A stretch of DNA of 64,000 nucleotides from positions 64,501-128,500 of the forward strand of contig OU744452.1 of the NCBI GenBank assembly GCA_916610825.1. The letters run 5' to 3'. Numbering within the stretch: position 1 is the first letter of the stretch; every line of letters starts with the position of its first letter. This DNA comes from Haliclystus octoradiatus. Lineage: Eukaryota; Cnidaria; Staurozoa; Stauromedusae; Haliclystidae. This document shows, piece by piece, positions 15,166 through 61,790 of the stretch. The notes under the pieces were generated by a model. It worked only from the letters and a program-made list of their open reading frames with translations. It did not search any database and was not told where the DNA came from. The translations under genes were made by a program, and so were the position numbers.

Positions 15166-15745
15166 ATTTAATCCAAAATTTATAATTTTGGTCAAAATTT
15201 AGTCAGAAAGGCGTTGAAATTTGGTCGGAAATTAGTCGATTCAGGGTCGGAAATTTTGGTCCGAACGACGTATAGTAGTGTCCACAGAACTTCGTCTTTC
15301 CGACCGAATATTTCTGACGTCGTTACGACTCCGAAACAACGTCATGTGTTTAGCGGGTATAGATGAATCTTGCCGTATATTCCACACATCAAAGCTATAA
15401 AAATCAATTCTGCAACTTGCCTTGGTGGGCCTTAGTGGGCCTGGTAGATTGGCCTACCTGAAGATCAAAAATATTGTTAAATCAAGAATCAAAAATATTT
15501 TTAATCAAAGTTCTTGTTAAGCAAAATTGACTGATGGTCTCTACGCGCCCAGAGTCTCGTGCGTGTTTGCCGCTTGTATATTGTTTCTGTACCTGAACTC
15601 CTTTAAGATTAAAAGTTAACTTCAAACGGGTGGATTTAGCACCTTTTGTAAAATGTTAGCAGATTCAAATTATTTGATTCCTTTTCATCGATATCAAATG
15701 TCATTAGTAGCCATTATAATAATTTTACAATTTCGCTCATCTTAA

Positions 15746-15945
15746 AGGAGCAAAAATGACCGGCATGCACTACGCACTTAGGATCACGTGCATGCTCATT
15801 GTTTATAACACAATGTTCATTGTTTACATGAATTTTATTACAAATTAGGCCTGCGTATAACAATAGTTTTAAAGCGAGACGGTTGAATTACGCTAAGCAT
15901 AAATTCAACTTGTGCTCGCCACGGTCGCTGGTGAAATATTCCCCT
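15746..15945 (+). mobile_element. TTAA-type MITE, copy 2
   Basis: A 200-bp element flanked by TTAA at 15742-15745 and 15946-15949. Ends are AGGAGCAAAAATGACCGGC... and ...TTCCCCT. It belongs to the same family as 10730-10928 (inverted) and 36688-36886 (same orientation). Confidence 0.8.
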
Positions 15946-16548
15946 TTAATGCATTTCAAAGTGATCAAATTAAAACCTTGTGGAGAGTTTCAAAACACAA
16001 ATAAAGCTTGTCAAAACTGCGCAAATAGCTTTAAAACAGCACAGACATGTTTAAAACGATGAACAAAGATGTTTCAAATGCAAGGTCTATTAATCTGCAG
16101 ATATATGTGGAAGCGAGGCAGAACTGCATAATTATGATGTTATCTATATAATCTGAAATATTTTACATGATATAATGAGGTGTTTGTAATCTCGTGTCTA
16201 ACAAAATCCTTTTAATTGACTTTAATAGTTAATTGTTTGTGGCTACTAATTAATGCCATACTAACTGACTAATGTGTTGATATATTTTGTTTCTATCTAA
16301 TAACTTCGAATGACAGATAATATTATTATAATATTTTTAACATTGTTATAGCATAAATTTGGTGATTATATATGGACAGTTCGGATGATGAGATTTGGTA
16401 TTTTCTCTCGTCTGCAAATGAGCTGATTGGAAATTGACTATGGAAGGACTGCATTGCTTTGGAATATCAACACAGAAAACTGACACGTAATAATTATATT
16501 TTGATATTCATTTCGGATGTATTGAGCAATAATGAAGCAGTACTTGCA

Positions 16549-17702: not shown

Positions 17703-18110
17703 TTCAAATTTCTTAGGAAAATCTACATTTTTTTTTACAATCATTTCCGATCTAAGTGGAAGCAGGGCTATCCTGTATGTATTATAGACAAGTACTTGAA
17801 GGATGATAATTACTGTAAGATTTTCTGATTGATTTTCTACAGTCAGATCATTCAAATTTCTTAGAATAATCTACATTTTCTTTACAATGATTTCCGATCT
17901 AAGTGAAAGCAGGGCTGTTCTGTATGTATTATATATAAGTACTTGAAGGATGATAATTACTGGAAGATTTTCTGACTGATTTTCTACAGTCAGATCATTC
18001 AAATTTCTTAGAACAATCTACATTTTCTTTACAATGATTTCTGATCTAAGTGAAAGCAGGGCTGTCCTGTATGAATTATATTTAAGTACTTGAAGGATGA
18101 TAATTATATA
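17703..18110. repeat. ~147-bp tandem repeat, 2.8 copies
   Basis: Units begin TTCAAATTTCTTAG at 17703, 17851 and 17998 (periods 148 and 147). They share GATTTCCGATCTAAGTG, AGCAGGGCT and AAGTACTTGAAGGATGATAA. The third unit is incomplete. Confidence 0.9.
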
Positions 18111-18370
18111 TGAAATGACATTGGAATCCAAATAAGATCAGTAAACAATATCCGATTGAGAACTCATCAAATCTCTTGATACAACAACGATCGACCTATG
18201 CAGCATATATAATTAACGCAACACAAGACAGCCGAGCCACTCATGTTTTGAATTGCAGATAATTAAGACACCCATACAATATGGTACGGTAGTTGTGATA
18301 TATCTTAGTATATCATCATTAATTTGTCATGAATTTAATCATATGAAATGTATCATTTCTATTACATCAG

Positions 18371-19062: not shown

Positions 19063-19262
19063 NNNNNNNNNNNNNNNNNNNNNNNNNNNNNNNNNNNNNN
19101 NNNNNNNNNNNNNNNNNNNNNNNNNNNNNNNNNNNNNNNNNNNNNNNNNNNNNNNNNNNNNNNNNNNNNNNNNNNNNNNNNNNNNNNNNNNNNNNNNNNN
19201 NNNNNNNNNNNNNNNNNNNNNNNNNNNNNNNNNNNNNNNNNNNNNNNNNNNNNNNNNNNNNN
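19063..19262. other. Assembly gap (200 N)
   Basis: Exactly 200 N, a conventional placeholder, so the true length is unknown. It truncates the caspase exon on the minus strand and follows the last visible exon of the plus-strand cytokine-like gene. Confidence 1.
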
Positions 19263-20091
19263 AATTCCGTTTCTTTGTTAAATTCAACATTGTTTATAAT
19301 AACACATAGGCCACGTGGATCACTTGTCATCGGGTAAACTAGAAAAAAAAAGATGTGTAACGTAATCGCTAACATACAATTTTGAGAGCCACCACCAATG
19401 CATACCAACTATAATCCTTGCTTACTTTATCTGAATCAGGATTTAATGTTGTCTTAATGATTAAAATTTATGATTCAATGTATTTGTATAAGATGTCGTT
19501 TACTTATTACTTTCAATGAAAAAGTTAATAGCAACAATTATGAAATTTTATTATTATTTTCAACAACGTTTCGGCTAGATTCAACTTCTGCCATTTTCAA
19601 GTTGAAAAAGAACCAAAAATTTTCAATCAATCAAAAAGGGATCGTTTAGTGTATGAGATGCTATACATAAAAGAAATCAAACCCTTTCTGAATACACAGC
19701 AAGACTCGAGTAGGTCCCTAATGTTTAAGTTATTTATAATATTTAGTCTATTGTTATCTTTTAGTATATATATTTGTAAAAATTTGTTACTTTTTAACTT
19801 ATAATATAATTAATGAGAACATCATTGGAGTGTCTTGTGAGTCATGAATAATTGTTACTGTAACTAGAATAAAGATTTCATTGCAATTTTTTAAAAGTTA
19901 AGAATTCATGGCTATTGGTCTAGTCTCTCTTGTTGCATCGTAGCTCACGAAATGTTATGTTTTAACTAACGGACGATTGAACAGCAATATATAATACACA
20001 ATTATATGCAAAAGCTGTAAGTTATCTCATAGTTTAAACGTATGAATCAGTGCTATAAAGAAGACAATTAATCAATAAAAAATAAAAGTCA

Positions 20092-20135
<44 letters not shown>

Positions 20136-23100
20136 TTATTCAGAATCTCTAAGTTATACAAACTTTTTTTCAAAGGACTGATCGGACTGTCTAGTTAGAG
20201 TTATAACTCACAGTAACCATCAAGCAAAATATATTCAATGAGAAAGGAAACACAATATTAATTAGTATAGGAAAATAGAATTATAATGTCATTTAGGTTC
20301 AGCAATTATGTATATGTGGTACAAAATAACAACACAACTAAGTTTGCACAACGTTTCGACTGATTAACTTCAGCCATTCTCAAGTGAATGTTTTTTTTAT
20401 TAATAATTAAGAATAAAAATTGTTTGCCCCTTGAGGGTAAAGTTACATCAGTAAGATTATTTACAATATGATATCGATATCAGTGACAACAGTAACTATG
20501 GTAACTAGCCTAGATATATTTCTAATCCTTAGAGGAAATGCTGTATCATGAAATGCATGCAGTTATTTGAAAACTTTGGCACTTTTTTATGATTTTAAAA
20601 TGTTTTTCAAATTCATCAGTAGATATGCCGTGCTCTTGACGGATGTGTGTACCAAGGTTACCTTTGTTGTGTGTTACCTATGTATATGTGCTATGATTTG
20701 AAGCTTGACAAGCGAAATACATTGATGGACAACAAATAATCCAACATTGGCCGCTGCCTCACAGATCACATCATATGCAAAACAAAAATGTACATAAACA
20801 ATATTATAATTGAAAAAACTTTATATCTATTTTACCAGACAGAAATAATATTATCTTTAATTGTTCATATCCTAGAAAAAATGTCCTAGTTGTTACACCA
20901 ACTTTAATACCATCAGTCAAAATTGCGTAGAATTTTAAAGTTTAATACAAAGTAGAAAATGTTTTTTTAAATGTCTTCAATGCAACAGAATGAGATACAT
21001 GTATGTATGTTGAATTTCAAGATCTGTATGACCAAACATCAGTTATTCCTAATTTGAACAAAACCTAATATACACAGGTCTATAGATTTCAAGATTATTA
21101 TTGACTCACATTTTTCAACAGGTATTTTTTCTTCATCTTCATGACTTCTGTCTTTAATTGATTCAATTTGATCTAAGCATAAGAGAGTGATTCAGATTAA
21201 CACAATCTTAGTATGATATAATATTTTATAAAATATTGCGTCATGATCCTGCACTTTGATTGATTGCTTTGATTGTTTTCAAACACTGTTTATGATTACT
21301 GTCTAGCTGCACTAGTCTCCTTGGTTTCTTTTCCCAGGCCTTTCTAAATTTTCACCTACTGGGAATATGGCCTAATAAGACAACTATGGGAGATACTCCC
21401 TCATAAGAATTCTGGTCATTTTGGTCTTCTGTATTTCATGAATTTTCTTTGCAAGTGGATGGTTCAAATAGTATTTGCTTTGAGGGATGTTATTGGAAGG
21501 GATTATGGATTATTTTATGGATTTTCTGAACTGGTTTAAGTTTCATATAGTATTTGCAATAAGAGATGTTTGATTGAAATTTTGATGGAAGTTCTGCTGA
21601 TGTCTCATGTATCTGCTAAAATGCTGCTGTATGGCTCAAAATTATTTCAATTGAGAGGTGTCAGACAGGAATTTGGTATCTTAGCTCATACAAGTGTCAT
21701 TGAACTAATAACGTAAATTTTTTGCAGACACAATGACTTTCTGTATCTAATCTAATATCCTATACAGATATGTATGAATCCTTAAAATATCATACCTTTA
21801 GAAGTTGATAGTAGAATGTCTAACTCCTTTCCACTTTGGCTCTGTTCAAACAGATCTGAAAAACAGCAATAAATGACTACTGTAATCATTACACCTTGTA
21901 AAGCATTAATATATATTCAGTGAAACTCGGTTAATATCCTCTCTTTTAATGTCCCACCTAGTTGCTTAATATCCCCACATGAAACTGATCTCTAGTTTTA
22001 ATTCTCCATATCAACTATCATATTCCTACCTCGCTTAATGTCCTGCTTTTTGTCGTATTACGTAATTGTTATTCCTGTATATATAACCTCTTTATATTAA
22101 CCTCGTTTTGATGTAGACTATAAAAGTAGATGTTCTTTATTAATAAGATTCGATTATGTTGGATCTCGCGTTGTACTCATTGACTCATGAATATCTTTAA
22201 TCATTGTCATACGACAAATTGGCGCTGCGAGTTATAAAGTACAAAGAATCTTCGCTGACATCGCGATGGACCGAAAAAGAATTTTAGTCGTAGATGATGT
22301 CGAGAAAGCAAACGCTTGGTTTGCTTCGTTTAATGCTAAATGCCGTCGCGATCATCTTGAAGATGGTGATCTTTCCAAAGACGGGTATTTAGAGCAAACT
22401 GATATGTTCATAGAAATGTGTGGAGAGACATCATATGTCACATTGTCAAGATTGGTTACACCAAAGAAGCTTGAACAAATGCCATTTGCTGACATTTATG
22501 CTATCGCTTGTAAATACATAGAGCCAAAAGAGCGTTTTTTGATTGCTGAACGCACTACATTTTTAGCAATACGACAATTGCCAGATGAGTCAGTAGAAGA
22601 TGTCTACACTAGAATCAATTATCAAAGTGAAAGATGCGACTTTTCACGGTTCAAAGAAACATTGGACCCATCAGAAGAGTTAAAGAAATTGGTTTTTATA
22701 AACTGCTTCAACGATGTCAAAATCACCAGAGAGTTGCTGGATTATATACGACTAATGCCAATGGCTACTTTTGAGGATTTAAGAGAACGTGTCCGCCTCT
22801 ACGATATGACGCAGACATTTCTACAACGAACGACATTACCTAATGAAGGAAAAGTGGTCGTTAATTATGTTAAAAGCTCAACCAACAAAGCTTCAAACAG
22901 TCATAAATGCAAATTCTGTGATGGGACACACCCTCCGCGTGCTTGTCCGGCTTTCAACAATAGATGTGGTTATTGCAACAAACGTGGGCACCTTGAACAG
23001 TGCTGTTATAAAAAGAAGAAAGACACCGCGAAGGTAAATCATGTAGCAGTGGACCATGACAGTGACGCCAATGACGATGTCAACGATGTAGCCATTATTT

Positions 23101-26100
23101 TATGCTGTGATGATGTCAATAATACAAGTCTATCTACTGAAGATATTAGTATTAACAATGTGAAAGTGAGAATGTTAAAAGACACTGGCGCCTCATGTTC
23201 TGTTCTGTTAAAGTTTGGGAACAGTTGGATTGTCCTCCGCTCACTCCAAGCAATCGTAAGCTCAAATGTTATGATGACCACGAGTTATCAGTAATCGGTA
23301 GCTGTAAATTAAATGTAGTTCAACATAGCGTAAATACTTCTATCATATTTTATGTAGAAGAGTCTAATAAAAATTATGGCCTGTTGGGTGGTGATCATGT
23401 TAGTGACCAGATGGTTAATTCCGCAGATGATGATGATGTGAAGCCACTCCCTTACATAACTGGTGTTTTAGCTTTTATGAAATTAAAGCAGGGTGCTGAG
23501 CCAATGTTTTGCCGTGCTAGACCTGTTCCACTCCCACTCCAAACCGCTGTAGACCTAGAGCTAACTCGGCTAGAGAGGATGGGGGTTATTGAGCCGATTG
23601 AATCGGGCGGGGCAGAAAATGCATCTCCTGTTGTTTGGATAAAAAAAAATCTGGTGGATTACGAATGTGCGCAGACTTTAGTGTCCATGTAAACAGCAAA
23701 ATCTTGTTCGATGATTACCCTCTATCGAATTCTGAAACAATTTTGCAAAAATGGATGGTGCACCTTTCTTCGCGAACATTGATTTGCAATCCGCCTATTG
23801 GCAAGTAAAACTCGACGATAACGCGCGAAAATTATCTATTATCAACACTAGTAAAGGCCTTTATAGCGTAACCCGCTTACAAATGGGCATGCGCAACAGT
23901 TCGGCTATTTTTCAACATGTAATTGAAGATGTCCTGCAAGGTTTAAAGGGCACAATTGCTTATCAGGATGATGTCCTTATTTATGCCACTACTGAAGAAT
24001 CTTTAAACAAACGTTTGAACGCTGTAATGGAACGGTTTAAATCATGGCGGCTTTCTATTAATATGGAAAAATCCACGCAGCGTGTTTCTGAAGTTTTGTT
24101 TTTGGGCTATCGCATATCAGCTTCTGGTATTCAACCAGATGATCGCCTTGTCAATAAAATTAACAGCATGCGTCCTCCTCAAAATAAAAAAGAAATTGAG
24201 TCATTTGTTGGTTTGGTGAATTTTTTTGGGCGTTTCATACCAAACTTTGCAGACAAAATAAAACCGCTAAATTTATTACGCAAAAAAGAAACCGCTTTTG
24301 AATGGAATAATGATTGTGCTCGTTGGTTTGAAAATCTCAAATCTGAACTTTCAAGTAAACCACTTGTTCAACCATATTCGTTGCTAAAAGAAGCGACATT
24401 GACCACTGACGCATCAGACCATTGTATTGCTGGTGTCCTCACACAGGATGGCCAACCTGTTATTTTTATTTCAAAATCCCTTACTCCAGCTGAAAAAAAA
24501 ATACTCTGCAACTGAAAGGGAAGGTCTCGGTATTGTTTGGTGTGTAGAAAGGCTGCGTCAACTGCTCTTAGGTCGTCATTTCACACTTATCACGGATCAT
24601 AAGGCTTTGATCCAATTATTTGGTGCTGATCAACCAATCCAAAAAACTGCTTCGGCACGAATCAGTTGGTGGCCATAAAATTAATGGCGTTTGATTTTAA
24701 TATTCTACACAGGCCCGGAACTGAAATCTGTCATGCTGATGCATTATCTCGCCTTTCAGTGTCTTCCACCCTTTCCCGCGAAGACATTGTTGCTGCTGTC
24801 GAAGTCACACGTAGCTGTGACGAGGCTTTTCTTCAGCCAGTTATTGCTTTTTCCGATTTAAAAAATGCTACTCATCTTGATGTCATCGCACAATCTCTAA
24901 AAGGGCGTATTATTTCGGGCAATTGGGCCAATCCCAGTGAAGCTGAGCGTCCGTTTGCGCGTTTGAACCAAAATTTAACTATACATAACGACGTTATCTA
25001 TTTCGGTTCTATTGCTTTTATTCCTGCATTGCTCCGCCGTTCAATTCTCGAAAAAGCACATTCTACCCACCAAGGTATAAATGCAACCCAGCGCTTTCTC
25101 TCAAAGAGTGCTTGGTGGCCAGGCATGGCTCGTGACATAGACCGCTATGTATCTTCTTGTGAACAGTGCTGTACTTTGCGCCCTAAGACTGCTAAATCAG
25201 TACATGAATGGCCAAAAGCTGACCCTTGGGAAAGATTACATATGGATTTCGGCCATGTCCCAGATATCGGAAATGTTTTAATGATTGTTGATGCTGGTAG
25301 CGGCTGGATTGAAGCTTTCCGATGTCCAGACCGATCCACTCCAAATATTATTCGAATATTTTCATCACTTTTTGCCCGTTTCGGTGTCGCAAAACACTTA
25401 GTTTCCGATAATGCGCAAGAATTCGTCAATGACGCTATTTTTTCTTGGCTAGCCAAATCTGGTTGCTACAAATCTGAATCACCCGCCTATTTCCCTCGCG
25501 CTAACGGCCTTGCAAAGCGGTCGGTCCAAACAGTGAAGCGTGCCATGAAAGCTTGGCATCGCAATATGCGCGTTTCTTTCGATATGTTTCTAAACAAGAT
25601 TTTGCTGGTACACAGAACTACTTCGAATGCTCGCTGAGAATCACCTGCACAAATTTTTTATGGGGAGAAATCTCAGAGTCCCTTTTGTTTCCGATCATGT
25701 ACCCGGAGACATTGTAATGTATAAGCCAACAAATTCCACACCCTCTCGGAAAGCTGCATTTGTTGTTGCAAAAGGATCAAACACAGCGTGGTTAAAATTG
25801 GGGGAGAGAACAGTATTAGCTTCGAACAATCAAATTGGCAATGCCCTTGTAGACTGCAATTTAGAACAAACAAGTAGGACTAGCCCCACACCCGATACAA
25901 CATCATCATCAGCAGTTCAACCAGCTGATTCAAACATATCTTCACCACATATGTCAATACGGCGTTCATCAAGAATTGTTCGTCAACCAAATCGTTTTGG
26001 TTATAGTTAATAAATAAAATAGATTAATTAATTAATTAATTTGGTAAAAAGACAACATCAGTAATAACAATATTTGCTTTAATTTAGATAAAGGGAAGTT

Positions 26101-29100
26101 GTCGTATTACGTAATTGTTATTCCTGTATATATAACCTCTTTATATTAACCTCGTTTTGATGTAGACTATAAAAGTAGATGTTCTTTATTAATAAGATTA
26201 GATTATGTTGGATCTCGCGTTGTACTCATTGACTCATGAATATCTTTAATCATTGTCATACGACACTTTTCATCCATACCAGAGGGGGGATATTAAGAAT
26301 ACAGAACTGTAATTATATGCATTAAAGTACCTGTTCTGTTTTTGCTTTAATATAATCTCAACATCATCAGAGGAAAAGAAACGAAATAGAATAGAATAAT
26401 GCACTAGCAAACAAAGTATGATTACAACAGGTTAAAAATTAGTTTCTGACATGTTGAAGTTTGTTTTACCTTTTGGTGGTAGTATCAAATTGATTGGTAT
26501 CAGTGAATCTTCTTTCCCACATAATAACGTACTTGTCTTGCATTTATAATCATGCCAAGATGAGATATTGAATTTGTATGGATCAACAATGGATTTTTTA
26601 ACACAACTTGGGCATAATGATTGTCGTTTAATGCAACCAAGACCAGGTAGACACACAAAAAAATCATCTGCAATCTAAAGTAATCGGAATGGATGGATAA
26701 GTATTGAATAAGATGGCTATTATTATTATATGTAGAATATTGAAATAATAATCCTAAAAATTGAACCTTGAAGATTCGTATTAATGACTTCCACAGGTCA
26801 TCAATATCTTCCTGGAGACATCTTCCTCTTAAAATTAATTTGCCACAACGCCCATCACTTTCCATGGTACAACATACTTTGCAGTTGGCTCCAGTTCCAA
26901 GGAAAGTATCTTGCCAAGCAATAGAATGATCGAACTCATGAAAAATAGTAGGAATGAAACGCTCAAATGAGCCAACAGGGAACGGAGAAACGATGGATTT
27001 AAATTGAACGGTTATTTCAACCTGCAAACGAATGCAAAAACAAAATGTTATGTATACTATACACGGTACATTTAAATATCCAAACAACGTGAAATGGCAA
27101 CACATAAAATTCATCAGGGCATGTTTGCATAATACGCGACTGCCAGTTCCAACATAATTGTATAATTACAAAGTAACGCATAAATTGAATACTCAAATAT
27201 GAAACTTACACGTTGATCAACATATATACCTAACAGTTTTCTGAAAAACTTTGGAGATCGATCACAGCCTAAGATCCGAGATGCGATTTGATCAACAATC
27301 ATGCATCAAATAATTATCAATTAAGGGCTAGGGTAACAGCATCAACAATCATATTATTGACTATTATATCTTCATATTATAGCAGTCATTAATTAAGGGT
27401 TACTACACACTTGCAAATGTTTGTATTCATATTTGAATAAATCAGGAAAAGTTGGGAGACACGAATTCACACGAGTGAAGCGCTAAAAAATCACGAGGGA
27501 TTTTTAGCTTCCCGATTGTCTCCCAACTTTTCCTTGTTTAGCTCTTTCGACCGATCAGATCGCAGAAAACATTTGTGATATTTTAGAACATTATATCTAC
27601 CGTAATCCAGCGTGTATAAGTCGCACGCGAGTATAAGTCGCAGGGTGATTTTTCAAGCAAAAAAGTTGAATTTATTGATTGTGCGTGTATAAGTCGCATC
27701 TTGATTTTTGAATCATTTGAACATAAAATATGGAAGAAATCACTGTAATTTGAAAATTATTTTCAGGTCTTTCTAGTAAACTAGTATGTGATAAGAAAAT
27801 ATGTCAATGTTTTTGTGAAATAATCCACAGTCATAGCAACAACAACAAAAACAAATCAAAACCAATTAATCATGAATTTTAAAAACCATAAACGCCAGAG
27901 AAAGAGTAAAATAAAGAGTAATAATCCAGTTTTAAAAACAGCCATTTTAAATAACATTTCATTCCTCAATATTGTACAATTCAGTAGATAACAAATCAAA
28001 TGAACTGCATAATTTCTTTACAGTTATAATGAAGTAATATGTTGTTTTTTGATGTCTCATTTCTTTCTAAACAAGTGAAAAGATTCCAGCATATTTTCTA
28101 TGTCCTACTACGCATGCGTTTTAAAAACAAGAAAAGAGGTTATTGAAAAATGGACAAAAATTTCGAAAAATTGTTGATGTTTTTTGTGTTTTGCACGTAT
28201 GTCGCACCATGATTTTGAAGAACAAAATTTTGACTTTAAAGTGCGACTTATACGCGCTGGATTACGGTATCATCTTTAAGAAAGTATCAAATGGGCAGAG
28301 TTCTGAGCGGTATTTTACTTACCCAATCCTTATCTTTAATCTCTTGCCTATTCAGTTTGTGTAAAACATCTTCTGGTGCTGGTTTAAAGAACCAAGGAAC
28401 AAGTAGAATCAATGAGGTACTACCAGATAAATCCTCTTGCTTTCCAAGATTAATTACAAGATTGAAATGACAAAGGATGTCAATCAGGAAGTAAATCATG
28501 TCATCATTATTTCTAACATAGTCTACATCTGACCAAATACATCTGCAATGCACAATACGAAATGTCAATCAGATATCAGAATTAATATCAAAATAAATTA
28601 TGACAACCATCATCAATCTATTATGGTATGCACTCCATGTTAAATATATCCTTCCTTCCTGCATTCATTCAAAATGTAATTGTAACTTGTAAGTTACGTA
28701 TAACAGAAAGCAGAACTTCCATTTTAGATTCTAGATTCTAAAGCAGGTTCTTCAATCTGAAAGCTCATGAAAGTTCTGTAATAAGTGAAATAGTGTTGAG
28801 TTATTAAGAGTCAGACGGGTAGCAGGTGTTAAGGTTGTTCATCTTTTAAAAGTTAGTAGGTTAAGATTCATTTTCTTTTTATTCAAATCAGGTTTTGAAT
28901 TCTATGTTGTTTACTTTCTTCAGATTATCAAATTCATTTATTATGCTTCTAATTTTGAAATTTCATTATGCTCAGTCTGACAGAAGCAAACAAATAATTC
29001 CCTCATTTGATCTTGCATTGAATCATTTTGCAAACAAGATTGAAAGCTCTTAATATACTATCAGCCTCTCATATGTGTTTACAATAAAAACAGGACACTT

Positions 29101-32100
29101 GAACAATATTTAAAACAGGCGATCAACTTTCACAACCCTCTTCCAACATAACTGGTCAACGTGAATTGTGAACTTCATTGATGATGTTCATACTTTGATT
29201 AATAAAAATGAAACTGTTCCATTGAAATATGGAGCAAGGATATATCTCAACAAGGAATAACTGTAAATTCAAAAACATAAGGTCATTATGTGACACTGAA
29301 TATCTACTATCATGCTCATTACGTATCAGAAATATCAGTACCTCAGAAGTTGTTTGCTTAGCCTTCCATTTTTTAGTAGCTCTTCCTTGAGTTGCACAAA
29401 ATCATCGAATGCTAAATCATACAGATCAACAAATTCATCTTTAAATTCAATAACATTATCAGCGTTGTGGTTAAATACTTTCTTTAAAACAATAATAAAC
29501 CATTCTGGATCCAAGAAAACAAAACGATTAAATGTTCCATAGCTGAAGTACAACACAGATCCGATTGTATCAAAGTATTGTAAAGCTGAGATTATCATTT
29601 CTTTAGTCATACCAAATTTGACTTTGACTGCTTCAATAAAAATATCTAACTTGATCACCGGGGTAGTCGTTCTTTGATTGACACAATACTCTTCTAGCTC
29701 AGCGTAAACGGTTGGAATTTCTCGCCCTACCAGTGGCATCACATCTGAATTGGTAAGGACTTTTATAAGTTCTTTTCTCAATTCACTAATACCATCAAGT
29801 TTACCAAATGAAGAAACTGGGATCATTTTGATTGAGACAGTTGTAGTTGAATCCCAAGACACTATGAACTGAAACATAATTAAAAAATATTGTGGTTGGT
29901 TCAAGTGGGTACAATTGGTAAATTTATACCAAGATGACATGTTTTGACACATCTTGAGATATAAATACTTTTCTGAAAAGATATCTTAGAAAAGGTAAAA
30001 ATAGTAACACCAGTTTTATCCTTGATTCTATTGGTATAAACATACTGTAGTCAATTTACATAGTCAGTGTGTGTGCGCTGCGTGCTTTTCCAGGAAATGC
30101 GTCATAATTTATCACCTTCTTGTATTACTTTATTACATTGTATCCAAGTTACTTCAACTTTTAAAAGATATGTTATGTTCTGTGATTGGTTTAATAATGC
30201 TGCTTGACATTCAAATAAATAATCATACAAATCATTGCTTGATTGCCATTTCTGTTACTGAAAAGAAGCATGATAGCCTGGTATGTAGATACAAAATATG
30301 CCTCACAAGTCTCATTAGAAAAAATTGTGGTCTTGTCTTTGAGACTCACCCAATTTCCAATTTGTAGTGCTGAACTAATATGTTTTTTCCATTTAACAGA
30401 TACATCAGTTACACGGGAAGATTGATCATCACGTTGGGTATTGTCAAGGCGACTTGTTTCTAAATCCTTTTCTCTTTTATCAATATCTTTCCACACATTT
30501 TGCATCACATGCTTACACTTCTCGTTAATTGAAACCTTATCTTCATCATTACATAAATCCAAATGAGTGGGTACAATGAGAATGGTAGCATCTGGTGCAT
30601 GAGCCAATATTACACTCATCCAGTTGCCAACATTCTCTCGGTAGTATTCAGGTGTTACTTCGTATTTGTAGAGATCCAATACAAGAAGAAATAGACAACC
30701 TTGAAATTAATTTAACATATTATGAGACAGATGCCTTTGAATATGATTGTGAGCAGATCATGGTACTGCTATGAATCTTACACGTAGTTAATCTGAACAC
30801 AAGCAATTGACACATAACTACAGCCGATTCTGCTAAAGAAATCACCTGTCTAAATGACCATAAATGATTTTCTATAGCATCACCTTACATATGTCAAGGC
30901 AAACTGTCTTTAGTACCTGCTTAATTCCTCTAGATTGTAAACGCGGCTCCCATATACAAAGCTCTCAACCCTCGCGATTCCCTCGGGAGTCTTCCTATTT
31001 CAAGCCTACTCTCCCGATTTCAGCAAAATCCTTCCGCTTATTTGATATTATGGTCATTATTCTGAATAATCAATAAATTGGCAAGTTTATATCATATTTT
31101 GTTTATTAACATACGCTTTTCGGCTCTGAAATGATGAAAAAAAGCCAGCATAAAAACATTGTAATAATTGTACCTTCATAAAATTGTAAGCAAAAACGTG
31201 CAAACGTGACTTTGTCAGTCTTTTATCCTTAATGTTATTAAGGTTATTTTAAAATGGCCAGGGTGCTTTCACAGAAATCTCCCTATATTTTGTCAAAAAA
31301 GGTTGAGAGCTCTGCATATAGAGGCTTCACTCCACAATTCAATCTGACAATCTGATTATTACAGTCACCTATTGAATAGAACAGTATATATTTCTTGGAT
31401 CCATAAATTTATTTTGAACAAAATTGTGATTTTATTTGTTTTATGGTATGTTTGTCACTTCTAGCCATATAGTTGAAAAACTAAGCTTGAGACACCATAC
31501 TTCTATTTAAAATTCAGATTTGTTATGTTAGATGTTCTGAACAAAATATACTACCCTTTATGTTCAAAATGGTTTCAAGGAATCAAAATCACAATTTTAG
31601 CAATGATCAAGGTATGGTCAGAGGGAATGCCTAAAGCTGGGAAATAGCAAGGTGACCCCATTTAAAAAAAAGAGAATTATCAATTTTCTTTTCTTTGATG
31701 TGCAGAAACATAATAGATTAAAAATAGACTAAAAAATTCAAGAGACATTCAATAATTAAACAATAGAAACGCTATCAGTATGATGTGTATAATTGTGATG
31801 GGATACGTATAATTTTCATTATGAATAAACCGTCTAAAGAACATTCTTAAGAGAAACTCAGAGTAAAGAACTACATTTGTAATCTCTGAGTAAATCTGGA
31901 TTATAGGACCACCAGGATTATCGTTATTCCAGTTCACGTCAGATTTACAAAAAAAATAGAAAGAAATTTGCAGAAAAATTTTAAACGAGATCAATTGTAT
32001 TTTGCGTTCCTGTAAATGAGTGTACCAAGTGGAAATACATTGTTTTGAGCGATTGATTTTAGGTTTAGTGAATATAGCAGCAACTAGCAGAATATTCAGC

Positions 32101-35100
32101 GATCTGGTGTTTGGATATTCGACCTAAAGACATTCAGACATTATTGAAATTTTCGCCTGCAATCTTTTACTTAGTTATTATCGTCGATTAATGGAACTGT
32201 TTGCTTGATTGATGGATTTACTGTATTTTGTATGTGTCTGTGTCATCTACGTTGATTATTTTTCAAATGATATAGGTCTACCATTGTATGTAATTGGTTG
32301 CATTGTCAATTTAAAGGTTGAATTAGAATGAGTTGAAAACAAAGAATAAAGTTTAGTTTTGATTATTGTTATTATTAATCTCTTAGTAATTGTGTTTTGA
32401 TTAATATATTATGTTGTTGTGTGTATTTATATTGTAGTTGCGTGTTCAGTTACTTCAAGTATGTGACCAATTATTATAAATTAAAATGTAGGCCTACATA
32501 TCAGGTAATTTAAATGGGAATTTCAATATTTAGAGTTTATAATTTAAGATATTTTGTAGCTAATACGGTCTCACGACACTATATATACATAGTAAGATAC
32601 ATTACCATCAATGATAGCTAAGCAATGATAACTGTGAAAGATGAATGGATACAAAATGATGATGATGACTGCATTAATAATTCTCTCGGGTGGGTGTGAG
32701 AATCCAGCCAGCAATCAAGTAACAACTACATACGATTTCTTTGCATAAACCGGGATTTTATAAATAATACCCAACTAAACCAATTTTTTAAAAAATAAAA
32801 AATAATTTTATGCTGAAATTTTGAACATTTGAGAATAATAGTTGGTGATAATCAGTACGGTGGGTCTAAACAGCTGAAGTGCGGAAAAACGCGGAAATCA
32901 TTGTTTCAAACTGGCGGCTTTTTAGGGATTGCAGAAACTTCACTTGCGGCATCTTGCGGTGATTCTATTGTCACGCTCTTTGATAGCCTTTGTATACCTA
33001 CCAATTCTTCTATTGATTAATACGCTATGAAGATTATTGCTTGCATGCTAGTTTACAAAAAATTATAGTCTTTAATATTTCAATTATCGTTGATTTAACA
33101 TATTTGCCTTTTCAGCGTAGAATGATCAGAACCTGAACTTAGATCGAAATCACCGTTCATTAGATCGCGTCTAATAGATTTCAACCGCTGCCAAAATCAA
33201 AGAGTAATTTAGCAAAGAGAAAACAATGAAAGTTAAATTATTGCATAAATATGATAGTATGACGTTCTATAGCTTTAGTCTAAATTATGTACCTAATATT
33301 TAACTGCCGAATGATTTTATACAAATATGCCCTTTCAATTAGTATTTTTTACAAAGCCATTTTCTTTCAATATGGTATTTGAATAATGCTATCAAAATTA
33401 TGACATCCTCTATTTTTTTAAATTATGTACTTAATATTTGACTGTCCTTTCCGATTGATATTTTTGTTTCAAGTAATCCTGTAATAGTGAAGTTGAGTGC
33501 TAACATGAGGATGTTCAGGTGGCACTACTATAACACTGCTAATTGAAGAGAAGTAAATGAAATCAAAGGGAGCCTCAATTCAAATTCAAGTTCATGGTTC
33601 GAGTAAGTTCCAAAGTTTATTTTTAAACTGATATGACCCCCATCGATTTTTCAGATATACATGTATAACAGACCAAGATGAGCGAAAAATAACAAGCTTG
33701 ATAGTTGTTTAACAGTACTGCCACCTTAACAGCCACGTGTTAACATTCAATTTCACTATTATTGCTATGGATTACTATGGATTCGTTGAAACAAAATGTC
33801 AATTGGAAGGGACAGGACTATTTGTGTGAAATAAATTGGTAGCTGAATATTAAGTACATAATTGAAAAAAAATAGAGAATGTCACCAAACTTTAATTTTG
33901 GCTGCGGTTGATATCTATTAGACGCCATATGATGAACGAGGATCTAATCTAAGTATCTTCTGATCATTCTATGCTGAGAAGACAAATATGTTAAACCAAC
34001 GATCACAATTGAAATTTTAAACACTATTAGGGATGCACGGGAATGCTATTCCGGCTGTGGCCGAAAAACCGAAAATGCTGGTATGATCGGCTGGAATTCG
34101 GTTTTGTTCCGGCATATTTTTTCTTTCGTTTGAAGTTCTTATACGACATTTGATCACCAAAAACGAGTTGAAATTGCTTACTTTGGAATATAGAATCATT
34201 TTTAAAACAAATTGACCATCAACACAAATGATTGCTCCTATTTGATTTCATGTTTAATCATAAAAGGCAATCAATTTATCTCTTCTCCACTCCAGTAGTA
34301 GGCCTACTACTTCGTACCCGACTTCGTAAAACAAATCGAAGGTTAAAAAGAACAATATTTGTCTCTATTTAGGAAAAAAATAATTGATACCAAGGAAACA
34401 TAATTTTCATGCAACAAACATGTCCGTCCAATTTATTTTGACCACATTGTCTGATGATTTATCTGGAACCGAGGTTTTTTTGAAAATGAGGCAAAGCAAT
34501 AAAATGGCTGCAATCAGCGGAAAACTTTGTAGGACTCCATTTCAAGACTTATCAAAGACAGTAAAGGCTATATGATGCATTGGAAACAGGATGGAATCAA
34601 TTATTATTTTGATTTATGTTATCAAATATGATTATTTGTTACATTTTATGTGTTTATAAGAAATGGCCGAAATAACCGAAACGGCCGAAACTGAAGTCAA
34701 ATTTCGGCCAAACCGAAATGCCGGAATTTTATGCCGAAACGAAATTTCGGTGCATCCCTAAACACTATATTGTATAAACTAGCATGCAAGCAGCAATTGC
34801 CATAGTGTATTAATCAGTAGAAGATTTAAAGGTATAGAAAGACTATCGCAGAGCGTGAAGATTCTGCAATCCCTCAAAAGCCGCCAGTTTAAGACAATAA
34901 TTTCCGCGTCTTTCAGCTGTTAAGACCCACCGATATTCAGTATAATTATTGGACGTTTTCAGTTTACAGTGAAATTCAATCAAAATGCGTCAAACTAGAA
35001 AAAGCTGCGATTGTCTGTGATAATGAAGGGAGCATCGTTGATTATATGTTGTGACAAGTCCTGCACAATAAGCTATGAAAAGCAGTGATTTCATTGAAAT

Positions 35101-38082
35101 GGATCAAGCTTCTAGTTTTTAGTTGCTAGTTGGTTTCCAACACCCCCCCTAATTGTTCACCATAACATGGCTAAGTTTACAAGAGAGAAAAAACCCGGGT
35201 TTCCAAAAGTCTCTCAAAAGTCCACCTTCGAAAAGTTTAGATTGGGTATCAGTTTACACAAGGATAGATTTATCTATTTTGTCTTAATAAAACGCTGTAA
35301 CTCCATTATTTCTTGTCGGTTTTTCGTCGAAATTGGATTTTTATACTTCTTTGATTCTGCAGTTTCAGATCGATATGTTTTTTTTTATTTAAATCATTCA
35401 AATTAACTTTTGTTATTCAGATCTAATTGAATTCCATGTGAATTGACACAGCTTTTGTAAATAATGCATTTTGAATACATGTTATTCACGATTATATCTG
35501 GGAAATACAGATTCATTGAATAGTTTTACTAAACTATAGTATTTTATCCTAAAACGAAGCCAAGAGGTTGCCAATATTTTCATGCCGTATCGCCGTGAAA
35601 TGGAAGTGGACTTTTGTAAAAACGGGTTTTCCATAAATCACTGTTTAGACAACAGAAAGAACCGGGTTTTGCAACGCATCAATGTGATACGAATTACGAT
35701 CTAAACAGTTTCAATTGAAAACATTTGCAATCTGGTATTTTTTTCTGTCCATGATTAATTATTGGTATCTATTACAGGAATAAAACAATAATATACGGTA
35801 CAGATGCTGTGACATAATAATCACAAACAATCAGACAACCATGCAACGCAGCAAAATGTTGTATTCACTACAACTAAATCCGTCGCTCACAACGCTGTAA
35901 GAAAGTAAGAAGCCTGCAATTAATAATCAAGCTAACTACCGTATTTTCCGGTGTATAAGTCGATTTTCTAGCCTCAAATTTTCAAGCTAAATACAAGGGG
36001 TCGACTTATACACCGAGTCTACAAATTAGTACCCAAAATCAAAGACAAAAACGACAACAATACAATTAAATCCTATATATAACGGACAACCTATATTGTT
36101 CATATTAATTGTCCGTATTGTTTTGAAAGTAATAAAACTATTTTTCAGACAAGCGATTTCAAAACAATTGTATGAATGAATGGTAAATGTAATTCAAAGC
36201 TGATGTGATCAAATTACGTTGAATTCTTTGTTTGCTCAAGTGTAAAAGGTCAACACATAAAGCGAGCAAGACTTGACAACTCGACAAACACGGAGAGAAT
36301 ATCTTGGACTACAATACTAAATCTTGAATTATATTTCCAATTAATTTACTTGGAAGCTGATCTGACCGATATATCAAGGCTAAATCATCCATGAATGTAG
36401 TACTAGTTTTGATATTGGTTTCACAAAATACATTTTACCGCTTGTTTGTTGATCTTGAGACAAAGGAAAAAGATCGAAAAGCCGTAAAGTTCCAAAATGA
36501 TTATACAAACATTATTGAAAATAAACAAAATTAAAACGATTCAGAACATGATGACTATGATTTAAATTCGGCTTATACAGAGAACATACCTTAAAACCTA
36601 GAAAATGGAGCCCAAAAACAGGTGTCGACTTACACACCGGAAAATACGTAGCTTATAAAACGAAATTAATCTTCACAAATTACTTAAAGGAGCAAAAATG
36701 ACCGGCAGGCGCTACGCACTTCGGATCACGTGCATGTTTATTGTTCATAACACAATGTACATTGTTGACATGAATTTATAACAGATTAGGCCTGCGTAGA
36801 ACAATGGTTTCAAAGCGAGACGGTTGAATTACGCTAAGCATAAATTCAACTTGTGCTCGCAGCGGTCGCCGGTCAATCTTGCCCCTTTAACTAATCTATC
36901 AGACATCACAACAAGAGATAAATTAAAAGCAAACAATTTACCTGCCATCGACTCCCCAATCAAAATACATTTCGATCTGTTGCTATGGAATCCATTAAAT
37001 TTATTTAACGCTTCAAAGTAACCAACAATTGAATCTAATCCTTTTACACATATTTCGTAGGGTGGTTTTTGCAAAGGATTAATATAAATATTTAATTCAG
37101 TTAACGATTTCAATTCTGTTATGCTTTCTGGTAAAAAAGTTAATGAATTTTTAGAACAAATTAATCTCTTTAACTCAATAAGATTTCCAATGTCATCTGG
37201 TAACGATAACAGCCCATTCGAAATAATATCTAATTCTTTTAATGCTTTCAATTTTGTTATTGAATTAGGTAATGTTTCGATGCTGTTTGATGATAGATAA
37301 AGTTTCTTCAATTTCATATCACTATTTGTAATTTCTGGAAACGACGTCAATTTATTGCGACCAATATATAATACATTTAACGCTTTCATATTTGATATTG
37401 AATTAGGTAATGTTTTGATGCTGTTGTTTGATAGATCAAGTATCTTCAATTTCATATCATTATTTGTAATTTCAGGAAACGACGTCAATTTGTTCCCGCT
37501 CAAATCTAAATGTATCAACTGAATCAAATTGTTTAATATATTATCTGGGAATTCTTTGATTGAGTTCTTACTTAGATCAAGACTTTGCAAGTTTGTTAGA
37601 TTTATAATTTCATTTGGGAATGTTTTAAGTCCACAGCTGAAAAAACCTAAATGTACCAGTGATTCCAAATTAAAAATAACACTTTCAATATTCTCAATGA
37701 CAAGTTCCGTATTTGATATATCCGACTCAATCGAATATATCGAATTACAAAGCCGAGCAGCAAAATTCTTGTTCCACTCTTCCGACAAGTATATATTTCT
37801 TTTAAATTGTATCGCTTTAACATTTCTTATAACATCATTAAAATTCCTTGAAATTTCATCCCCAACTTTGATGTTAGATAAGACAATTATAACAGGATAA
37901 ATATAGTAACCATCTTCTTCGCCAAGAAATAACGTAACACATCCACTTTCATTATCAAAACTTCGCTTTCCTTTATCGAGAAGCAAGTTCCACAAATGAA
38001 TAAATGCCGTATCACATTCAATTTCATTGTCAAATCTTCGGCTTCCTCTATGGGTAAGTAACTTCCGAATATGATTTAACAT
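19263..38082 (-). CDS. LRR-Roc-COR (Roco) protein continuing into a caspase domain, partial
   Basis: Exons (minus): 36942-38082 (ATG at 38082; N-terminal region, about nine leucine-rich repeats, then P-loop CILIGESMAGK cut by the intron); a missing Roc exon; 30350-30699 (CLFLLVLDL, THLDL = G4 of Roc); 29342-29868 and 28323-28542 (COR; FVFLDPEWFI, LVPWFF); 26767-27021 (COR-B; PFPVGSFERFI); 26470-26667 (Cys-rich, ends LPPK); 21796-21855 (LFEQSQSGKELD); 21110-21172; 19263-19338 (FYPMTSDPRGLCVIINN, the start of a caspase p20 domain), cut by the gap. Phases match at 30350/29868, 29342/28542, 28323/27021, 26470/21855, 21796/21172 and 21110/19338. The 26767/26667 join is out by one base next to a run of seven T. 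Roco proteins are GTP-binding scaffolds and caspases are Cys proteases, so the fusion suggests a GTPase-controlled death or immune protease. Catalytic His and Cys are not visible. Confidence 0.75.
19560..19770 (+). mobile_element. Penelope-like remnant
   Basis: Plus frame with IKEIKPFLNTQQDSSR, matching the C-terminal tail of Penelope proteins (EMKPFLNTQSDS in the copy at 13200). A hammerhead-like end motif in inverse orientation, AACGTTTCGGCT...GCCATTTTCAAG, lies at its left side. Confidence 0.6.
20094..20145. repeat. (ATC)n microsatellite
   Basis: About 15 perfect ATC units in a row. A simple repeat in the intron between exons of the Roco-caspase gene. Confidence 0.97.
20345..20700 (-). 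mobile_element. Penelope-like remnant
   Basis: The minus reading gives THIRQEHGISTDEFEKHFK, the region just after the GIY-YIG domain of Penelope proteins. It ends in CTTGAGAATGGC...AGTCGAAACGTTGTG, the shared hammerhead-like terminus (20349-20385). Confidence 0.6.
22051..22216 (+). repeat. 5' LTR of Gypsy-1
   Basis: 166 bp, TG...CA with inverted ends TGTCGTAT/ATACGACA. It contains TATA-like CTATAAAAG. Matches 26100-26265 except GATTCGATT versus GATTAGATT. Confidence 0.95.
22266..23294 (+). CDS. gag: Gypsy-1 Gag with zinc knuckles and protease start
   Basis: A 342-codon frame from ATG at 22266. The N-terminal half is a helical capsid-type region. Near residues 215-245 there are two CCHC-like knuckles (CKFCDGTHPPRACP and CGYCNKRGHLEQCC) that bind element RNA. 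Near residue 305 the aspartic protease motif begins (LKDTGASCSVLL, catalytic DTGA), still in the Gag frame. The downstream pol sequence continues in another frame from about 23195, so a frameshift or mutation separates protease from RT. Confidence 0.9.
   Translation: MDRKRILVVDDVEKANAWFASFNAKCRRDHLEDGDLSKDGYLEQTDMFIEMCGETSYVTLSRLVTPKKLEQMPFADIYAIACKYIEPKERFLIAERTTFLAIRQLPDESVEDVYTRINYQSERCDFSRFKETLDPSEELKKLVFINCFNDVKITRELLDYIRLMPMATFEDLRERVRLYDMTQTFLQRTTLPNEGKVVVNYVKSSTNKASNSHKCKFCDGTHPPRACPAFNNRCGYCNKRGHLEQCCYKKKKDTAKVNHVAVDHDSDANDDVNDVAIILCCDDVNNTSLSTEDISINNVKVRMLKDTGASCSVLLKFGNSWIVLRSLQAIVSSNVMMTTSYQ
23195..26010 (+). pseudogene. pol: Gypsy-1 Pol (RT, RNase H, integrase), frame-broken
   Basis: Frames 23195-23692, 23751-24515, 24427-24678, 24666-25637 and 25627-26010 form one Pol. 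Its parts are the RT (NIDLQSAYWQVKL, then YQDDVLIYA, catalytic DD), RNase H (LTTDASDHCIAGVLTQ and LITDHKALIQLF), integrase zinc region (a His pair followed by CEQCC), the integrase core (HMDFGHV, then SDNAQEF) and a Ser/Thr-rich C-terminus. The breaks at about 23645 and 24495 sit in runs of A. Others lie near 24665 and 25625. Homopolymer errors or true decay are both possible. As it stands no full Pol can be made by simple translation. Confidence 0.9.
26100..26265 (+). repeat. 3' LTR of Gypsy-1
   Basis: 166 bp, nearly identical to the 5' LTR and preceded by a purine-rich tract. Followed by CTTTT, the right copy of the target duplication. Confidence 0.95.
27440..27540. repeat. Short hairpin repeat
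   Basis: GGAAAAGTTGGGAGAC near 27446 pairs with GTCTCCCAACTTTTCC near 27519, and inside it TCACGAGGGA is followed by TCCCGA. About 90 bp in total. It looks like a tiny foldback MITE. No coding content. Confidence 0.6.
27598..28269. mobile_element. MITE with TACCGTAATCCAGCG ends
   Basis: A 672-bp element with terminal inverted repeats TACCGTAATCCAGCGTGTAT and ATACGCGCTGGATTACGGTA, followed inward by TAAGTCGCAC. The MITE at 35938-36649 has a related end structure (CCGTATTTTCCGG..TATAAGTCGA). No transposase is visible. It lies in a Roco intron. Confidence 0.8.
30700..32825. other. Large Roco intron region, little recognised
   Basis: The Roc exon carrying the G2/G3 motifs should lie between here and 36940, but only the doubtful frame at 31749-31994 was seen. 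No mobile element with clear ends was recognised in this part. Confidence 0.4.
31749..31994 (-). other. Possible but doubtful Roc exon
   Basis: An open minus frame contains DVNWNNDNPGGPIIQIY, in the place where the Roc exon with G2/G3 motifs is missing. No good acceptor precedes it, and the DxxG motif expected after the beta-strand is absent. It may be a decayed exon or chance. Confidence 0.2.
32835..34972. mobile_element. 2.1-kb foldback (palindromic) element
   Basis: The left arm (about 32835-33540) and right arm (about 33712-34972) are inverted copies. Examples: GGTGGGTCTAAACAGCTGAA (left) against CAGCTGTTAAGACCCACC (right); GCTTGCATGCTAGTTTA against TAAACTAGCATGCAAGC; TAGTGAAGTTGAGTGCTAAC against the reverse of TGTTAACATTCAATTTCACTA. 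The loop is about 170 bp. The right arm is interrupted by a hAT MITE at 34028-34760. Divergence between arms is moderate. No coding region. Confidence 0.8.
34028..34760. mobile_element. hAT-type MITE nested in the foldback element
   Basis: Ends are TAGGGATGCACGG and CGGTGCATCCCTA. It is flanked by the 8-bp duplication AACACTAT at 34020-34027 and 34761-34768. Both the end sequence (GGGATGCACCGAA type) and the 8-bp duplication are typical of hAT elements. Repeated GGCCGAAA/ACCGAAA blocks lie near both ends. Non-autonomous. Confidence 0.88.
35938..36649. mobile_element. MITE with CCGTATTTTCCGGTGTATAA ends
   Basis: A 712-bp element with inverted ends ACCGTATTTTCCGGTGTATA and TTACACACCGGAAAATACG, each followed inward by an AGTCGA-type block. 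An internal smaller inverted repeat lies near 36080-36120. It lies in the first Roco intron. Confidence 0.8.
36688..36886 (+). mobile_element. TTAA-type MITE, copy 3
   Basis: 199 bp flanked by TTAA at 36684-36687 and 36887-36890. It is homologous to 10730-10928 and 15746-15945. It sits only about 55 bases inside the intron from the splice donor of the LRR exon, so it could affect splicing. Confidence 0.85.
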
Positions 38083-38339
38083 GGTATCAGTTATTTAGGC
38101 ACAATTGAGAACAAATTACTTATAACAACGTAAGCTACGAGAGTCTACCTACATATCTCCAAATGAAAGATGGGGAAATAACCGCCTTGATTTTCATTTT
38201 CTCTAAGCATGGGCGTGAACACGTGATTGACAGAAGTTGGTAGAATCAAATCGAGGCAAAAGGCCAGACCGCTGACCGGAAAGAGCCAGATAATTCCAAA
38301 TGGCAAGTATTGCGTAACTATGCTTGAATAATGCTTAAA

Positions 38340-39060
38340 TAATTCATTTCAAAATTCTTGTTCAACTGTTGCAAGTCTATTACCGACAAGTATCTTTTTT
38401 CTTTTGAATTGTATCGCTTTTACTTTTCTTTTAACATCATTAATATTCCCTTAAAATTTCATTCCCAATTTTGATGTTAGATGACGTAACACATCCACTT
38501 TCATTGTCAAATCTTCGCTCTCCTTTATGGGTAAGTAACTTCCAAGCTTCGGGGGGGGGGGTAACTCCTGTTTTTCAGGAACAGGGGGGTGCCACTTTGG
38601 AAAAAGGTGAAGCACCCAAAAAGTTAAAAAAATTCTGTTGATGCTACCCAAAAAATTCCACAATTTGAAAAATACTACTCAAAAATTTCTAGCATATTGA
38701 TTGATTTCAAGTAAATACACAAAATGATGCAAAATGTTTCCAAAAATTCTTGATAAAGTCAAAAATAGGATAACTCATACCCAATAGTTCCAAAATTTGA
38801 AATCTCATACCCAAAAGGTTTTTTTCAGCTGAAATATGAACCCAAAATAAGTGGCACGTCCCCGTATAGCCGTCAGACGGGAGTTACCCCTACGGGTTTC
38901 CAAGTATGATAAAGTGACTGTACTATCAGTAATTTAGGCAGAATTGCGAACAAATTACTTGAGCATAAAATAACGTAAGTTACGTTGAGATGAGTCTATC
39001 AAAATATATCAAAACCAAAGATGGAGAAATGAAAAGTATTGATTTGATTTCCATCCAGCA
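38340..39060 (-). pseudogene. Decayed duplicate of the Roco 5' exon and upstream region
   Basis: 38340-38546 resembles 37760-38060 of the functional exon (shared blocks CAAATCTTCG, TATGGGTAAGTAACTTCC, GACAAGTAT, TTGTATCGCTTT). After the MITE, 38905-39060 resembles the sequence upstream of the Roco ATG (38083-38200: ATCAGTTATTTAGGCA..., CAAATTACTT, AACGTAAG). Coding frames are lost. This is a tandem partial duplication, later hit by a MITE. Confidence 0.75.
38547..38897. mobile_element. hAT-like MITE with TTCCAAG duplication
   Basis: A 351-bp element between copies of TTCCAAG (38540-38546 and 38898-38904; 7 of 8 if extended). Ends are GGGGGTAACTCC and GGAGTTACCCC. Inside are many CCCAAAA-type blocks. 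It is related to the fragment at 1440-1600. Confidence 0.75.
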
Positions 39061-55834: not shown

Positions 55835-55924
55835 TAACATAAAGTTACCTCAGTCTAGGTGTGGCTGAACTATTGATAAGTGTGTTCTCTGAGTTATGTA
55901 AATCATATAGTTGAGGACACCACA
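55835..55924 (+). repeat. 5' LTR of Gypsy-2, second part
   Basis: It begins with the right copy of TAACATAA (55835-55842), continues AAGTTACCTCAGTCTAGG... and ends GGACACCACA. It matches 63463-63551 of the 3' LTR with a few substitutions. A primer-binding region (TTTGGCGACGAAAATGG) follows. Confidence 0.95.
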
Positions 55925-61400: not shown

Positions 61401-61782
61401 TAATATTCCTGATATTTTCCTCTCAAATTAAATCACATGATTTCACTAAAAAAGGACAGCCTCGCTTTCATGTTTCTACTGGGAATGCCATAAATCAAAT
61501 TGCAAAATTAAGGCATTTTGCCTACTCCGATTTCGGAACATTTTGGATATGTTGTTAAGCATAAAATTTTACCCTAGAATTGATGAAAAATGCTTCTGTT
61601 GCAATTTGTGTGAGGTCATTTTTTATAATGACTGTACTATTTCACTCACACAACTGAGACCGGAAATTAAAATTTTATAAGGCGACATCAGAGTAGTACA
61701 GTGTCAGCAAAACAGCTTTGTTCGGTCGGCCACACAGACTTTACACTTTCCTTCAGAAACGGTTTAGTCTGGACGCAGGCTA
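58462..61782. mobile_element. 3.3-kb foldback element in the Gypsy-2 RNase H
   Basis: 3321 bp flanked by the 8-bp duplication CTGAATCA (58454-58461 and 61783-61790). The ends are inverted repeats beginning TAGCCTGCGTCCAGACTAAA. The arms pair almost throughout: 58462-60110 with 60665-61782, the right arm lacking about 500 bp found at 58570-59120. The roughly 550-bp centre is rich in short palindromes such as GTTCATGAACTGTTCATG. No transposase is present. It is a foldback/long-TIR element of unclear superfamily (hAT, P or KDZ by duplication length). Confidence 0.9.
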
Positions 61783-61790
61783 CTGAATCA

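Follow-up and report, generated by a model that had tools for sequence, protein, structure and literature searches.

Exon chain on the minus strand of the window

The window, that is, the whole stretch of 64,000 nucleotides analyzed here, corresponds to C8:64501-128500 in a genome of 261.9 Mb assembled in 33 contigs, and its GC content is 34%. The caspases, Death domains and introns of this genome point to an animal. Its minus strand carries a chain of exons that begins with exon 1 (36942-38082), which contains a start codon, an N-terminal part without a Pfam match, leucine-rich repeats (LRR_14, E=2.1e-25, and also LRR_4 and LRR_8) and the start of the Roc P-loop (GESMA/G, with the slash at the exon border), and which ends in phase 1. 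Exon 1 is also present in an intronless copy on contig C4, whose homology extends to window position 38178. Just upstream of exon 1, at 38398-38543, its 5' part recurs as degraded, partial repeats, and several further exon 1 copies have similar broken pieces ahead of them. A dispersed repeat is located at 36683-36890 and 15741-15949, with copies about 90% identical.

The next exon found in the chain is the Roc exon with the THLD (G4) part (30350-30699), which matches the C4 copy and sibling loci on C8, and whose alignment with the Roc domain of LRRK2 was not significant on its own. It is followed by COR exon a (29342-29868), identified as COR-A by Pfam (E=3.5e-11), by LRRK2 chains (whole-sequence E 0.0047) and by the C4 copy; COR exon b (28323-28542), matched by the C4 copy and by siblings L034, L036 and L048; and COR exon c (26767-27021), matched by the C4 copy and by siblings L033, L034, L036, L038, L039, L046 and L048. 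The donor of exon c is weak (GTTCAA), yet its junction differs from the C4 copy at only 1 of 30 positions. COR exon d (26470-26674) ends in ...NLILPPK in phase 1, and its junction shows 0 mismatches of 30 with the C4 copy.

Two linker mini-exons, each running from phase 1 to phase 1 and each supported by the C4 copy and by sibling matches, separate the COR exons from the caspase. Linker 1 (21796-21855, 60 nt) was detected at E 0.01 or better in 6 of the 17 sibling loci (L034, L035 with 59% identity, L036, L038, L039 and L047), and the homology search did not find it in the other 11. Linker 2 (21110-21172, 63 nt) was detected at the same threshold in 12 of the 17, with best matches per locus 52-95% identical, and was not found in L041, L042, L043, L045 and L046. 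The chain then enters the caspase p20 exon, of which the first 76 nt (YPMTSDPRGLCVIINNVEFNKETE; 19263-19338) are present. A sequence-only reading of this DNA had joined COR exon d, both linkers and the p20 start in phase 1; the joins hold, with GT/AG borders and phase 1 at 26674-26470, 21855-21796, 21172-21110 and 19338-19263, and only the start of the first of these exons has to be moved, from 26667 to 26674. The spliced frame reads ...INLILPPK/DLFEQSQ...STSK/DQIESIK...VEK/FYPMTSDPRGLCVIINN.

The p20 exon is cut by an assembly gap of exactly 200 N (19063-19262), so that the window shows only the first 24-25 residues of the caspase. Over 25 residues this start aligns with PDB chains of caspase-8, at E 0.00094 in the best case; Pfam, queried with the 27-residue piece alone, returned no match even at a limit of E=1. 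A search with a sibling p10 found no p10 exon in the window, and tblastn beyond the first caspase exon, with caspase-8 and caspase-3 queries, returned only weak matches in the window (best E 0.40) that contained stops or were scattered. Downstream of the gap, a 147-nt unit is repeated three times in tandem (17729-18169).

The window copy is also incomplete in its Roc part. A motif scan and a homology search between 36942 and 30699 detected no exon that completes the P-loop and carries G3. The stretch beside exon 1 in which sibling comparison places this exon is 35896-36941 (minus strand), and homology to sibling L050/L036 restarts at window position 35896, about 155 bp past the G1-G3 exon of that sibling. 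Because of this restart beyond the exon, the window copy seems to have lost its G1-G3 (GKT/DCAGQ) exon; an exon hidden in the window was rejected, since neither the P-loop/G3 motif scan nor the homology search gave a match.

In addition, the intron between COR exon d and linker 1 contains an LTR retroelement (22050-26265, plus strand) in antisense to the gene, with two 167-nt terminal repeats that are 99% identical and a frame (23736-24515) matching RVT_1 (E=8.9e-24). Sibling L036 has an empty site at this position. As to other elements of the window, frames at 55911-63288 (plus strand) resemble by eye a second gag-pol retroelement, and two cysteine-rich frames without a Pfam match, at 8490-9017 and 54134-54535 (-), look alike by eye and perhaps belong to KDZ-type transposons. 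Judged by its sequence, the window gene is a damaged, incomplete member of a clustered and expanded family; neither the incompleteness nor the family was visible to the sequence-only reading.

An intronless copy on contig C4

In the copy on C4 (L031) the introns are absent: exon 1 is followed directly by the Roc exon that the window lacks, and then without interruption by the THLD exon, the COR exons, both linkers and p20. When the seven window junctions from Roc to caspase were compared with this copy, six matched with 0-2 mismatches of 30 (2, 0, 1, 0, 0, 2), and the same six gave 6-12 mismatches of 30 when the acceptor was shifted by 1-3 bases. The three joins that lead from COR exon d through linkers 1 and 2 into p20 are among the matching ones, with 0, 0 and 2 mismatches. 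The first junction, from Roc to COR, has diverged and is not distinguished from its shifted versions (10 of 30 mismatches against 10-13 when shifted), and the Roc and COR matching blocks abut in the C4 copy to within one base.

The C4 copy is frameshifted: its LRR and Roc parts are broken, and an open frame sets in with the THLD exon. The p20 donor is the exact point at which it departs from the family, so that the evidence of splicing that it provides spans from the LRRs to p20 and does not extend to the p20-p10 join. From that point it continues in frame into a tyrosine-recombinase frame (L031:1744-2757; C4:10862743-10863756, minus strand) with a Phage_integrase match below the Pfam cut-off (E=3.1e-05); a chimeric transcript, formed by splicing into an element with a recombinase, may have given rise to this join. 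Taken as a whole, the C4 copy is a putative retrocopy of a past spliced transcript that reached from the LRRs to p20. The linkage of a Roco GTPase to a caspase proposed in the sequence-only reading is thus borne out both by this copy, which reproduces the joins, and by the position of COR exons upstream of 17 of the 18 caspases on C8; the joined LRR-to-p20 sequence largely disposes of the case named there as refuting it, transcripts that end after the COR exons with the caspase in a gene of its own.

A transcript joined in this way could also arise if Roco and caspase were two adjacent genes and the retrocopy had preserved a read-through or operon-like product. This reading finds some support in the frame of COR exon d, which runs to a stop 38 bases past the donor (...MSETNF and stop), and in the C8 COR loci that lack a p20 partner (11 of 28). 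Against it, the reading frame passes from COR into p20 through the two mini-exons, both of which are spliced precisely in the retrocopy and neither of which has an in-frame ATG. The parts also stand in the same order at 14 loci, among them some with COR subfamilies whose silent divergence is high or saturated. We consider two adjacent genes highly improbable.

The gene family on contig C8

The exon-1 N-terminal, Roc, COR-A and p10 exons were mapped genome-wide, and 10 kb of sequence, slightly more at two loci, was read at each of the 17 C8 siblings, which together with the window make up 18 C8 caspase loci. A COR-A exon on the same strand was present within 40 kb upstream in 17 of the 18. Shuffling of strands gave a mean of 9.7 loci, and random positions within 0.06-3.1 Mb gave a mean of 2.8; the value of 17 was reached in 0 of 10000 permutations and in 0 of 10000 trials, respectively. 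The complete ordered set of exon 1 (LRR), both Roc exons, COR and p20 was found in 14 of the 18 loci, a count that rests on search coordinates, with spacings of up to 12, 16 and 20 kb allowed among the upstream parts; the locus at C8:2129159-2154252 is one example of a full sibling. A same-strand p10 lay within 20 kb downstream in 17 of the 18, all 14 ordered loci included, and none of the 17 p10 matches on C8 contained stops.

Four loci depart from the complete set: the window (no G1-G3 exon, no p10), C8 1412085 (exon 1 not found), C8 1498743 (neither the G1-G3 exon nor exon 1 found, and p20 truncated) and C8 7966187 (no COR, and p10 15 kb away). Conversely, no p20 partner was detected for 11 of the 28 C8 COR loci used; examples of such Roc-COR copies lie at C8 1692860, 1702672, 1641561, 2191064 and 2428287. 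Exon-1-like and p10-like matches also occur near each other at C2:30476714-30486187 (minus strand). Chance splicing of the window exons was ruled out by the retrocopy junctions together with this array.

The domains of the siblings are recognizable by profile. Pfam searches with joined sibling exons identified Roc (1.5e-13), COR-A (1.6e-10) and Peptidase_C14 (5.6e-46), the last with a query made of the p20 (L034) and p10 (L049) of one locus. The Roc motifs GESMAGKTSL, DCAGQ and THLD are present in sibling L050/L036 and, up to its breaks, in the C4 retrocopy. Accordingly, the features of the Roco family, a P-loop of the form GxxxxGK[ST] and a DxxG motif, were found in the siblings and not in the window copy; COR follows Roc directly, as COR-A in the window and by exon order in the 14 loci. 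The features of metazoan caspases (Peptidase C14), that is, p20 and p10 with the catalytic His and Cys, were likewise found in siblings.

The sequence-only reading had looked to the catalytic His and a QACRG-type Cys as a check. Both residues were found in 16 of the 17 sibling p20 exons, all 16 of them open and full-length, with SHG in every one and the Cys in QACQG (15 exons) or QTCQG (one exon); the window copy is cut by the gap before it reaches them, and the p20 of the seventeenth sibling (L048) is truncated. The two p10 exons that were read contain SWR...GTWF and end in a stop. Among 12 similar p20 copies, pN/pS was 0.31-0.72 in all 19 windows of the alignment. Diversifying selection was rejected, since none of the 19 exceeded 1; a separate value of 2.45 comes from a window with only four ungapped codons.

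These data bear on two rival explanations. According to the first, the window copy is a pseudogene fragment in an array that is mostly dead, and the fusion has no present function. The missing G1-G3 exon and p10, the retroelement in the window intron, the truncated p20 of L048 and the frameshifts of the retrocopy would fit such decay. Set against this, 16 of the 17 sibling p20 exons have an open frame with both catalytic residues, pN/pS stays below 1 in 19 of 19 windows, and the 17 p10 matches on C8 are free of stops, and we regard a dead array as unlikely. According to the second, Roc-COR would be the working part, and the caspase would chiefly serve as a scaffold or regulator. About 70% of effector-position caspase domains in bacterial vWA systems are catalytically inactive, as stated in the available text of PMC7159879, which gives this explanation some ground; the siblings, however, retain the catalytic residues in 16 of 17 cases, and the two p10 exons read keep SWR and GTWF, and we regard this explanation as very unlikely.

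The COR exons fall into two main subfamilies, which differ by a dN of about 0.27-0.60 and by a dS that is above 1 or not computable; where dS could be computed, dN/dS between them was 0.12-0.48. A third COR type, L046, gave a dN/dS of 0.81-0.87 against the main group in exon d. Because both diverged main subfamilies precede caspases, the sequences suggest that the Roco-caspase fusion is old. In 10 of the 12 copies compared (L032-L047), the closest relative of one half of p20 is not that of the other, a pattern suggesting that caspase exons may have been exchanged between copies, as by gene conversion. Such exchange weakens the dating of the fusion by COR divergence.

Origin, proposed function and comparison with known systems

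The origin of the caspase was approached with a p20 tree of 23 sequences, which takes in animal caspases only: 9 of the 17 siblings, 5 of the 7 other loci tried from the same genome, 7 of 9 database caspases and 2 human sequences. The nine Roco caspases in it cluster together (98/90), beside a caspase on C6 (96/90), in a tree with 4 of 20 inner branches well supported. The genome-wide profile search gave a single DED match, below the Pfam cut-off, on C6 about 0.5 kb upstream of another caspase, and 14 Death matches, one of them on C8 at 7.82 Mb. Neither DED nor Death was found beside the C8 array in this search, and no Death match fell in the 0.08-3.04 Mb array; on C1, one COR has a Death match 6.3 kb downstream. 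Because, among the sequences searched, the caspase is nearest to animal caspases and the Roc-COR part is nearest to Roco-Death proteins, the LRR-Roc-COR-caspase combination probably arose anew in animals.

In animals, initiator caspases are known to be turned on when death-fold adaptors recruit them, and activation of initiator caspases results from their mutual proximity. Roco proteins dimerize through C-COR in a manner coupled to the nucleotide (PMC6337361, in the part available). The two together would make a GTPase-gated caspase. With fairly good confidence, we propose that the family encodes one polypeptide composed of LRRs, Roc, COR, a linker and a metazoan caspase (p20 and p10), to be read as a GTPase-gated initiator caspase, with the window as a damaged member. 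The LRRs would sense a ligand, Roc-COR would act as a nucleotide-dependent dimerization switch, and dimerization would bring two caspase domains together, which might then begin proteolysis after self-processing in the linker between p20 and p10, which contains Asp. Since dimerization itself would join the caspases, COR would replace adaptor recruitment, and the GTPase would take the role that DED/CARD prodomains and adaptors have in ordinary initiator caspases. The likely use would be cytosolic innate-immune sensing or cell death; a GTPase-gated protease that would serve immunity or cell death, as the sequence-only reading had proposed, is a reasonable hypothesis.

If this is correct, a caspase placed directly behind LRR-Roc-COR would constitute sensor and executioner in one animal protein, similar to a predicted bacterial defense design. 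It would also offer a clean readout of what the GTPase cycle and COR dimerization do to an attached effector, a question that is open for Roco proteins such as LRRK2, DAPK1 and MFHAS1.

Precedents were searched for among proteins and in the literature. With a 584-residue query, none of 6434 candidates reached E 0.001; a 964-residue query, for which 7993 candidates were scored, turned up a single protein, of the Roco-Death type; and a 1273-residue query (4538 candidates) gave 11, namely two Roco-Death proteins and nine caspases, eight of them with DED or CARD. None of these 11 lists both Roc or COR and a caspase, in searches that need shared five-residue words and limit length, so that a protein joining them may have been missed. 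No Roco-caspase is mentioned in the available portions of PMC3196919 (amphioxus), PMC10923776 (Ciona), PMC7836458 (bivalves) and PMC8283722 (cyanobacteria), and the literature search, with most subscription papers outside its scope, found no animal Roc-COR-caspase protein in the texts it covered. Within the literature and proteins searched, bacterial LRR-AP-GTPase-COR-caspases and animal Roco-TIR proteins are known, and the animal Roco-caspase is apparently new.

The nearest relatives of the Roc-COR part, the LRR-Roc-COR-Death proteins P0001 and P0002 (E 3.8e-47 and 3.5e-63 over the part searched), have the same order of LRR, Roc and COR, and their COR ends at the same place; they carry a Death domain at the position where the C8 family has a caspase. 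The likeness to DED initiator caspases of the caspase-8 type lies in the other half: the p20 start is nearest to caspase-8 (PDB), and the QACQG site and the p20/p10 layout are common to both, whereas these caspases have a DED and the C8 loci have no nearby DED match. DAPK1 is a Roco protein tied to cell death, as the accessible part of PMC6337361 describes. Unlike the C8 family, it has a kinase before Roc-COR and a Death domain, and it has neither LRRs nor a caspase.

The peptidase entry IPR009003 denotes a trypsin-like fold and not a caspase. Within the text available to us, PMC11378527 reports this entry at the C terminus of brown algal ROCO group 3, and CARD and death domains in Trichoplax ROCOs, which resemble the C8 family in having a peptidase, or death-fold domains, attached to a Roco part. 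Toll-like and MyD88-like proteins of Aplysia carry ROC and COR (PMC9334734), and sea anemones have TIR_2-GTPase-COR genes (PMC5094078). These animal Roco-TIR proteins combine, as here, a Roco part with an immune signaling domain, but this domain is TIR instead of a caspase, and no caspase is named in them in the available parts of both sources.

The closest parallel in architecture is bacterial. LRR-AP-GTPase-COR proteins with C-terminal effectors, a caspase among them, have been described in bacteria, and in the sections of PMC8195603 available they show the same order of LRR, Roc-type GTPase, COR and C-terminal effector, with several paralogues per genome; they differ from the C8 family in being prokaryotic and in having varied effectors. 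We also consider it possible, though slightly less likely than not, that in an animal lineage single-chain LRR-GTPase-caspase receptors bypass the relay of receptor, adaptor, DED and caspase and thereby re-invent the bacterial LRR-AP-GTPase-COR-caspase design. They would have multiplied near one end of the contig into an array of 14 or more genes, with segments passing between their caspase exons in the manner of immune receptor families that evolve fast.
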